DNA from: Eubacteriaceae bacterium
Lineage (GTDB): Bacteria > Bacillota > Clostridia > Eubacteriales > Anaerofustaceae
Direction of reading: 5' to 3'
DNA: 64,000 bases
Assembly: GCA_009782515.1 (NCBI GenBank)
Contig: WRIY01000004.1
Span: 62,001 to 126,000, forward strand
The notes below the pieces were generated by a model that worked only from the letters and a program-made list of their open reading frames with translations, was not told where the DNA came from and made no database searches. Made by a program: the position numbers and the translations under genes. Each line of letters starts with the position of its first letter. The stretch's first letter is position 1. Shown here one piece after another: positions 20,737 through 50,440 of the stretch.

Positions 20737-20757
20737 GCCATGGCACTAAAAAAATAT

Positions 20758-20852
20758 ATAGAGTAGGCAATACGCGTTAAGTAGCAAAGGATGGGATGTT
20801 GCCTTTGCACGAAAGCCCTGCCGGGCTGCGGTGTATTCGCTGCTTCCGCTAA
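20758..20852 (+). ncRNA. Tetrahydrofolate (THF) riboswitch
   Basis: Primary sequence follows the THF-I consensus: gagtag, cgcgttaagt, atgggatgttg, acgaaa, gcggtg and cttccgct in the right order and spacing. Stem P3 is caaagg/cctttg and P4 is agccc/gggct. It precedes the folate ECF S-component gene. A tgtggc/gccaca hairpin (20856-20871) without a T run sits between the aptamer and the SD (aaggag, 20896-20901), pointing to control of translation and not to termination. Confidence 0.95.
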
Positions 20853-20906
20853 TGCTGTGGCATACGCCACAATTACGGGAGTGTTACTTAAATACAAGGA
20901 GAAAAA

Positions 20907-48595: not shown

Positions 48596-50038
48596 CTAGT
48601 GCGCGCTGTAGCTTTCTATGGCCTGCACCAGGCTTCCAATGCCGCTTTCAGCCATGCTTATGAAGCTTAGGGCTTTTTCAGACCAGCCGCTTATGATGTT
48701 GGTATATTTGCCGTGAAACTGCTGAGTGCCATAGCCTTGCAGATCGATCGCATGCACCCACGCTTGAGGCTGGAGCATTTCTTTTCTGTACATGTCAGCA
48801 AGGCTTTGGACAGGATTGCTCCATTGGCTATTAATCTGGTTGTCTGAGATCACTATAATGCGATCTGCAGGGATTTTATTGTCAATAAGGTATTGGAAAG
48901 GCAGCTCCATAGCTGTCCCGCCTCCATTGACAGGTATTGCCCTGGCTTGAGCCAAAATCCCGCCTTTTGAAGCAATTGCCTGGGGATACAGGCCAGTGTC
49001 AAATGTCAAAAATATGCTTTCCTCGCATACTTTTGACAGCGCAACGCCTAAAACCAAACCAATCTCAGCGCATGTAATTTTGCTTCTGCGGCTGATTGGC
49101 GCAGTCATTGATCCCGATACATCCACTGCGATTACGCTCATGCCCTTAACAGCAGGGATATTTGAAACAGAGATGTTGATAGCTGTTTCAAGGGCATTAA
49201 ATGCCTTTGATGTCGCTGCAGGAAGCTGCTCAAGCTCCTTGTATGCCGACAAAAACCGGAAAGGCAGCTGTTTAGAGTTGAGCACCCGGCCCTCATCGCT
49301 TATATGATCATATACAATGCCGATATTTAAAGGTTTGGCATTGATTATGTTTCTGAGGTTTCTGAGCATGGCCATATATCCAAGCTTGCCTGATGCAATA
49401 AGGCCCTCCCAAACTTCCTTGGTGCTGCCTTTTGATGAAAGCTCTGTTTCCCATGTATAAGGCGTTTTGAGATCGCCGCTCAGCACGCGGCTAAACAGAT
49501 CTGACTGTTCATCAGTTTCAGGCTTTGGATGGCACAGCCTCAGCACATCCCTAAGCTTTAAAGCGTTTTGCTCACCCTTGTACTTAGCCAGCTCATATTC
49601 ATCAAATGATTTTATCGAATCGCTTATGCCCTTTTTCAGCGCATTTGGAATAGGCTTGCCAAACATTGTAATGTACGCAGCCAGGATTTCAGCAGGATCG
49701 TCTGCACGAGGCGTTATGGCAGGAAACATGCCTCTTATGTAAGGCTTTCCGGCAGGCTCGCTAGCCAGCACTGCTGTCAGGGCATGCGAAACAGAGCGCA
49801 TGTTAAACTCGCGCCTTGCGTATAAAGCAAGCTTGGCAATGAATTGAGGATCATCCTTTGCCAGCTCAGCTGCGCCCTTTACTATATCGCTGCTGTTGTC
49901 AGAGTAAAATTTCGGCTCATTGAAGAAAGTTGTCAGCACCTGAGTGAGCAGGCGCTCTTTGCCTTCCATTAAGTAGGCTGCATGGCCTTCTTCGTTTGTG
50001 CCTATGATAGATGCTTTTGGCTTGTTGAATCTTGCCAT
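48596..50038 (-). CDS. rsr: Ro60/TROVE-domain RNA-binding protein (bacterial Rsr)
   Basis: 480 residues. N-terminal TROVE ring of helical repeats (about 20-290; KLALYARREFNMRSVSHALTAVL and GYMAMLRNLRNII are typical), C-terminal von Willebrand A domain (about 305-480) with the MIDAS DVSGSM (about 311-316), a Thr in NGGGTAME and Asp in ISDNQ. Ro proteins bind Y RNAs and the ends of misfolded RNAs, and in bacteria act with PNPase in RNA decay and rRNA maturation under stress. SD ggaagtga. A candidate Y RNA is directly upstream on the same strand. Confidence 0.93.
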   Translation of the reverse strand: MARFNKPKASIIGTNEEGHAAYLMEGKERLLTQVLTTFFNEPKFYSDNSSDIVKGAAELAKDDPQFIAKLALYARREFNMRSVSHALTAVLASEPAGKPYIRGMFPAITPRADDPAEILAAYITMFGKPIPNALKKGISDSIKSFDEYELAKYKGEQNALKLRDVLRLCHPKPETDEQSDLFSRVLSGDLKTPYTWETELSSKGSTKEVWEGLIASGKLGYMAMLRNLRNIINAKPLNIGIVYDHISDEGRVLNSKQLPFRFLSAYKELEQLPAATSKAFNALETAINISVSNIPAVKGMSVIAVDVSGSMTAPISRRSKITCAEIGLVLGVALSKVCEESIFLTFDTGLYPQAIASKGGILAQARAIPVNGGGTAMELPFQYLIDNKIPADRIIVISDNQINSQWSNPVQSLADMYRKEMLQPQAWVHAIDLQGYGTQQFHGKYTNIISGWSEKALSFISMAESGIGSLVQAIESYSAH

Positions 50039-50111
50039 AATTTCACTTCCCTATTTTTTGTCTGCCAATGATCAATAAGCTGCCAACAAGCAATTTGTCA
50101 GCAGGCGAATA

Positions 50112-50290
50112 GCAGTGCAAATCCAGTCTCCAAGTTTGATACAAGATGAAAAATATCTGCCTGTTTGTGCAACAGGCAATAAAGGCAGATATAAAGCCAT
50201 TTCCATGCGAAGAATCATCGAATAGCGGCAGCAGGATTCGAACCTGGTATGTAAATATTCAGCCAATGAAGTAGCCGCTATCTGCACTGC
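50112..50290 (-). ncRNA. Candidate Y RNA with tRNA-like module (YrlA-type)
   Basis: Read on the minus strand, outer 5' and 3' ends pair perfectly (gcagtgca at 50290-50283 with tgcactgc at 50119-50112). Inside, an eight-pair acceptor-like stem atagcggc/gccgctat (about 50281-50274 and 50229-50222) encloses a D-loop-like cattggctga and a T-arm cagg-ttcgaat-cctg, with no anticodon arm. Next is a hairpin atatctgcc/ggcagatat (about 50191-50183 and 50160-50152). This matches the plan of bacterial YrlA RNAs, which bind Ro. Ends are approximate; a degenerate tRNA is the alternative. Confidence 0.6.
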
Positions 50291-50338: not shown

Positions 50339-50440
50339 TAAAATGCCCAGCGAACTGAGCGAACTTTACGCTGCCAAGCAGGCCTTTTGGGCCTGTTGCC
50401 AGGCGCAATCTAAGCGAAGAAAGTGTCTGCTGCACTGCCC
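50339..50440 (-). ncRNA. Possible second structured RNA upstream of the Y RNA
   Basis: On the minus strand it begins with ggcagtgcag, the same ten bases that open the Y RNA candidate, and contains a strong hairpin caggcc/ggcctg extended by caa/ttg and ctg/cag (about 50400-50370). No coding frame. Could be a second Y-like RNA or the 5' part of one longer RNA. Confidence 0.3.

Follow-up and report, generated by a model that had tools for sequence, protein, structure and literature searches.

Two putative tandem Y RNA genes with reduced tRNA-like parts upstream of a clostridial Ro60 gene

Y RNAs encoded beside Ro60/Rsr genes are known in bacteria, where the basal stem of the RNA binds the Ro60 orthologue (PMC8394870, PMC4726728). 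In Deinococcus radiodurans, a Y RNA tethers this orthologue to PNPase, forming RYPER, and the RNA doubles as a gate (PMC8394870, PMC4726728). In the Rfam YrlA model (RF02553), the acceptor hairpin stands between the T arm, which comes first, and the D arm, and both arms lie inside a closed stem. Chen et al. 2014 (RNA 20:1715) reportedly found a tRNA-like domain in one or more of the Y RNAs of each species. The locus we describe here resembles these known bacterial systems in that several elements lie beside the Ro60 gene on the same strand and carry tRNA-like parts, and in that each has a closed basal stem with a conserved internal loop and a variable insert.

The locus lies in a 64-kb stretch of DNA (the window). 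An initial annotation had placed a single 179-nt RNA at 50112-50290 and likened it to YrlA. We read the candidate on the minus strand because the Ro60 gene (ro) is on the minus strand, and we found that there is indeed a structured element in that interval, although it is one of two, and the upstream element, Y-A, had been missed. The second element, Y-B, overlaps the proposed interval with different ends: the earlier limits cut off the 5' strand of its closing stem and took in a terminator together with some of the ro leader. The features of the locus, in the predicted order of transcription, are as follows.

50516-50488, minus strand: second promoter-like pair, TTGCCA-17-TATAAT, 11/12
50457-50449, minus strand: putative extended -10 element TGC-TATAAT, 7 nt upstream of where Y-A begins
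50442-50317, minus strand: Y-A, 126 nt, directly upstream of Y-B
50442-50438/50321-50317, minus strand: closing stem of Y-A, 5 pairs
50437-50430, minus strand: CAGUGCAG of Y-A
50429-50423/50338-50332, minus strand: inner helix of Y-A, 7/7 pairs by descriptor
50422-50339, minus strand: insert of Y-A
50404-50416, minus strand: weak anticodon-arm-like hairpin of Y-A, CGC-UUAGAUU-GCG, present in 2.8% of shuffles
50344-50362, minus strand: D-arm-like hairpin of Y-A, GCUC-AGUUCGCU-GGGC, 14/19 identity to the D arm of relatives
50302-50198, minus strand: Y-B, 105 nt
50302-50290/50210-50198, minus strand: closing stem of Y-B, 13 pairs by descriptor
50289-50282, minus strand: CAGUGCAG of Y-B
50281-50275/50228-50222, minus strand: inner helix of Y-B, AUAGCGG/CCGCUAU, 7/7 pairs by descriptor
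50274-50229, minus strand: insert of Y-B, 46 nt
50258-50270, minus strand: weak short hairpin at the site of an anticodon arm in Y-B, UUC-AUUGGCU-GAA
50232-50246, minus strand: canonical T arm of Y-B, CAGG-UUCGAAU-CCUG
50192-50149, minus strand: terminator-like hairpin with U run, downstream of Y-B, z -3.06
48596-50038, minus strand: ro (Ro60/Rsr), 480 codons, TROVE and vWA domains

Judged from its sequence, the TROVE-vWA gene is a real Ro60 gene. Its product matches the Pfam families TROVE (1.7e-41) and vWA_Ro60 (1.7e-13), and among PDB entries it matches the TROVE proteins 9l5y/9kop at 3e-36 and human RO60 at 5e-7. The gene occurs once in the 2.67-Mb assembly, and Ro60 is scarce in the host's order (2/67 genomes). 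The same genome has a PNPase gene, so that ro, Y RNA and PNPase genes are all present as in D. radiodurans, a gene-level likeness to RYPER. The closest Ro60 proteins, about 50-53% identical, belong to a Eubacteriales metagenome-assembled genome (L003) and to clostridial genomes of the same class (L023-L028, L047 and L048), and that of L029 is more distant. A search of viral contigs found no close Ro60 relative, and phage records hold many distant ones. At one related locus (L030 / L037, G637:C1:2002473-2003526), the Ro60 gene is broken over two reading frames and has a Y-like element upstream. Elsewhere in the window, on the plus strand, we noted a THF riboswitch aptamer at 20757-20853 (66.8 bits, threshold 36).

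The clostridial relatives share a Ro-stem module, which runs through a closing stem, CAGUGCAG, a 7-bp helix, UACUUCR and a variable insert before returning through the other helix strand, CGAUUUUCU and the other strand of the closing stem. Such elements lie upstream of ro in L003, L023-L029, L047 and L048, with two to three per locus in most. In a gapless alignment of 17 modules from relatives, with the insert trimmed to 12 nt, 13 of 14 pairs showed double-sided changes and 95% of cells were paired, a result to which none of 500 shuffles and no slid register was comparable. For most elements tested, unforced minimum-energy folds yielded the Ro stem, in which a bulged base usually occurs together with an AG:CU step and an asymmetric internal loop. 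The paired bases conserved near ro in related species are those of the Ro stem. The third Y RNA of L025, L026, L028, L047 and L048 carries a conserved GGUACGUGAAAACGUGUGCAGGUGNNAAUCCUGC-like insert without a canonical T loop.

We searched the window with a descriptor of the Ro-stem module, in which an insert of any length was allowed, and with two covariance models. The descriptor matched exactly twice in 64 kb, at Y-A and Y-B, both on the minus strand before ro, while 400 dinucleotide-shuffled 64-kb windows gave one match in total. The first model (R1), built from the excised Ro stem, bridges long inserts poorly, and its only two matches in the window were the 5' halves of Y-A and Y-B, which were weak (E 0.37 each). 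The second (R2) was built from 12 full-length tRNA-like Y RNAs of relatives with the window sequences held out, and it matched just Y-A (37.9 bits, E 1.8e-8) and Y-B (25.5 bits, E 4.7e-5). Across the whole 2.67-Mb genome, which is 94% complete, R2 ranked Y-A first and Y-B third; the matches ranked second and fourth (contigs C31 and C2) lie at ordinary tRNA genes and were dismissed. The 5' pattern occurs without mismatch three times in the genome, twice at Y-A and Y-B, and the third copy (contig C28) has no 3' half by the descriptor. Searches of this genome with the 5' motif and R2 found no third Y RNA, and no sequence closely related to Y-A or Y-B was found for a within-lineage covariation test.

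ARAGORN found no tRNA in the window, and Rfam gave no YrlA (RF02553) or vertebrate Y_RNA match there at either gathering or lax thresholds, which was the outcome of the proposed covariance search with the YrlA and Y RNA models. The proposal of a Y RNA-type element beside the Ro60 gene and on its strand was nonetheless borne out by the Ro-stem descriptor and by R2. Both elements lie on the same strand beside a Ro60 gene and have a long basal stem that joins their ends and carries the conserved Ro-stem motif, as described for bacterial Y RNAs. On the basis of these predicted features, we conclude that Y-A and Y-B are Y RNA-type elements, additions to the known bacterial Y RNAs. In their Ro stem, with CAGUGCAG, UACUUC and CGAUUUUCU, they agree with the clostridial Y RNAs of L003, L023-L029, L034, L047 and L048, and relatives arranged in the same way exist in several other clostridial genomes.

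The two elements differ in their inserts. Y-A folds better than its shuffles (z -3.74; 0/200 equally good), and in the R2 alignment it matches the permuted consensus end to end. The identity of its hairpin to the relatives' D arm was attained by 33 of 5000 shuffles, and we found no T loop in its insert. Y-B is the lowest-energy fold, without forcing, of the transcript that stops at the terminator, and it is closed by 13 bp, although its fold on its own is no more stable than those of shuffles (z -1.24). Its 3' motif, CGAUGAUUCU, is a drifted form of CGAUUUUCU. The T arm with the ttcgaa loop, recognized in the initial annotation, is genuine: when the 46-nt insert was dinucleotide-shuffled 100,000 times, one of that quality arose in only 7 cases, and the T loop lies 31 nt from UACUUC, where relatives mostly have 28-32. 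L034 and L010 have T-arm-only elements as well, next to complete ones, and that of L034 is Y-B-like. The R2 model favors a longer Y-B that ends at 50164, within the terminator loop (about 145 nt); we rejected this version because its helix is poorly paired, whereas 50302-50198 has 7/7 inner and 13 closing pairs.

Several parts of the proposed YrlA plan take on other roles in this comparison. The supposed acceptor-like stem, AUAGCGG/CCGCUAU, lies where relatives have the covarying Ro-proximal 7-bp helix, and the extra long hairpin is the terminator. We found neither an acceptor hairpin nor a D arm in Y-B; the D-arm-like hairpin lies in Y-A instead. Where an anticodon arm would stand, Y-B has the weak short hairpin, whose geometry is that of UUC-AUUUCAC-GAA in L003. 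The YrlA order is thus not reproduced by the window pair: Y-B has only the T arm, Y-A aligns with the permuted consensus but lacks a T loop, and neither matches RF02553. As regards the tRNA-like domain reported by Chen et al. 2014, neither element contains a complete one, Y-B having the T arm and Y-A the D-arm-like hairpin, and no complete module was found elsewhere in the 94% complete genome.

Most clostridial relatives have one Y RNA per locus whose insert matches the YrlA model below threshold, the best at 50.9 bits (E 1e-8; threshold 69). These inserts begin with an anticodon-like hairpin, which is followed by the T arm, the acceptor hairpin and the D arm. As in YrlA, the T and D arms lie inside the closed stem, but an anticodon arm, absent from the Rfam model, is present in the relatives' Y RNAs. 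When the inserts were rotated back, ARAGORN called 23 of 30 as tRNAs (Lys, Asn, Glu, Arg, Leu and others), compared with 0/30 in genomic order, 0/600 shuffles and 0/150 random rotations. Half of the distinct inserts (12/24) have a 7-nt loop with U33, a purine at 37 and at least 3 bp closing it, where 1.2 were expected. It is well supported that the relatives' insert is a circularly permuted tRNA that includes the anticodon arm. Complete inserts of this kind occur in L023-L029, L034, L003, L005, L008, L010 and L022. Because review text on YrlA names only D, T and acceptor arms (PMC8394870), an anticodon arm in Y RNAs may be undescribed, as judged from that text.

Three further observations concern these inserts. 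The Ro60 genes of the Bacteroidota L005, L010, L011, L013 and L022 lie inside dense tRNA gene clusters with many Y RNA elements. In L022 (L022:945, plus strand), one Y element, which has a long variable arm, resembles a class II tRNA-Leu(UAA) in permuted form. At L004:5201 (plus strand), a Y insert has an anticodon-arm-like hairpin on its own, UUAGA-CUGGAAA-UCUAA (Ser GGA), and no T arm.

Most relatives' loci carry a complete permuted tRNA-like Y RNA in addition to the shared Ro stem, whereas the window locus has none. The inserts of Y-A and Y-B are most likely eroded forms of the permuted tRNA that is still whole in relatives. The window pair represents the reduced end of a range of tRNA mimicry, with the T arm in Y-B and the D-arm-like hairpin in Y-A. 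A broader reading, which we consider doubtful, is that the inserts of Clostridia and Bacteroidota are complete permuted tRNAs of various isotypes, opened between the D and anticodon arms, and that the Ro60 ribonucleoprotein displays the anticodon arm so as to lure or sense enzymes that cut or bind tRNAs; the window pair would then be this mimicry eroded and split between two RNAs.

Given these data, the locus very probably consists of two tandem Y RNA genes before ro, each predicted to combine a Ro-binding stem with an effector-handle insert derived from an eroded permuted tRNA. Alternatively, one RNA of 179-187 nt might be closed by GCAGUGCAGAU/AUUUGCACUGC around a tRNA-like module in normal order without an anticodon arm, as the claim of closed outer ends implied. 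The 187-nt segment does beat its shuffles in folding (z -3.27; 1/200 equally good), and in the full leader its outer stem of 11-14 bp is marginally lower in energy than the Y-B helix (-75.5 versus -74.7 kcal/mol). However, this outer stem pairs the conserved Ro motif (CAGUGCAGAU) with the ro leader beyond the terminator, thereby sequestering the motif and requiring read-through, while the terminated transcript folds as Y-B. In relatives the leaders are too short for the outer stem, and nothing corresponds to it there; it also leaves Y-A unexplained against a comparative stem with 13 of 14 covarying pairs; we regard a single long RNA as extremely unlikely.

The leader segment AUUUGCACUGC (window 50107-50123) shows complementarity with the Ro motif of Y-B and, in part, with that of Y-A, which may reflect a switch or chance. 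In read-through transcripts it could pair with CAGUGCAG of Y-B (or Y-A) in competition with free Ro60, which would so control its own expression. The near-equal energies of the two folds and the position of the anti-motif between the terminator and the ro start are consistent with such a switch, yet it is absent from relatives and is a post hoc proposal from a single sequence, and we think it improbable. It is also conceivable that the elements are decaying relics of Y RNAs that this lineage no longer uses, as the incomplete tRNA-like modules and the drifted 3' motif of Y-B might suggest. Decay is very unlikely, though, when all inner pairs are kept despite helix sequences that differ from each other and from those of relatives, when CAGUGCAG is exact in both elements, when promoter and terminator sequences flank them in register, and when ro is intact.

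Under the reading of two tandem Y RNA genes, transcription would be driven by the promoter at 50457-50449, whose TGC-TATAAT would place the start at the first base of Y-A, and would run through Y-A and Y-B to the terminator. Each Ro stem would comprise a closing helix, a bulged C, AG:CU pairs, an asymmetric internal loop, the 7-bp helix and UNCUUCR. By analogy with Deinococcus and Salmonella, the stems of Y-A and Y-B would bind the host's Ro60, holding the Ro60 ring and covering part of its RNA-binding surface, and the RNAs would serve as scaffold and gate. The insert atop the stem may act as an effector handle that recruits a partner, either PNPase or a protein that recognizes tRNA arms; Ro60 and this partner could then act jointly on defective or structured RNA. 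Unlike in RYPER, the effector module is reduced in the window elements, and Y-A and Y-B would offer two different handles.

These results map two previously unannotated Y RNAs of a clostridial lineage precisely and provide a covariance-backed Ro-stem model that detects Y RNAs missed by the Rfam YrlA model. The permuted tRNAs with anticodon arms in relatives are the more striking side result. Mimicry of tRNA in Y RNAs appears to be graded, from a whole permuted tRNA with an anticodon arm to a lone T arm, and this gradation makes it testable which tRNA-like part recruits the partner of Ro60.
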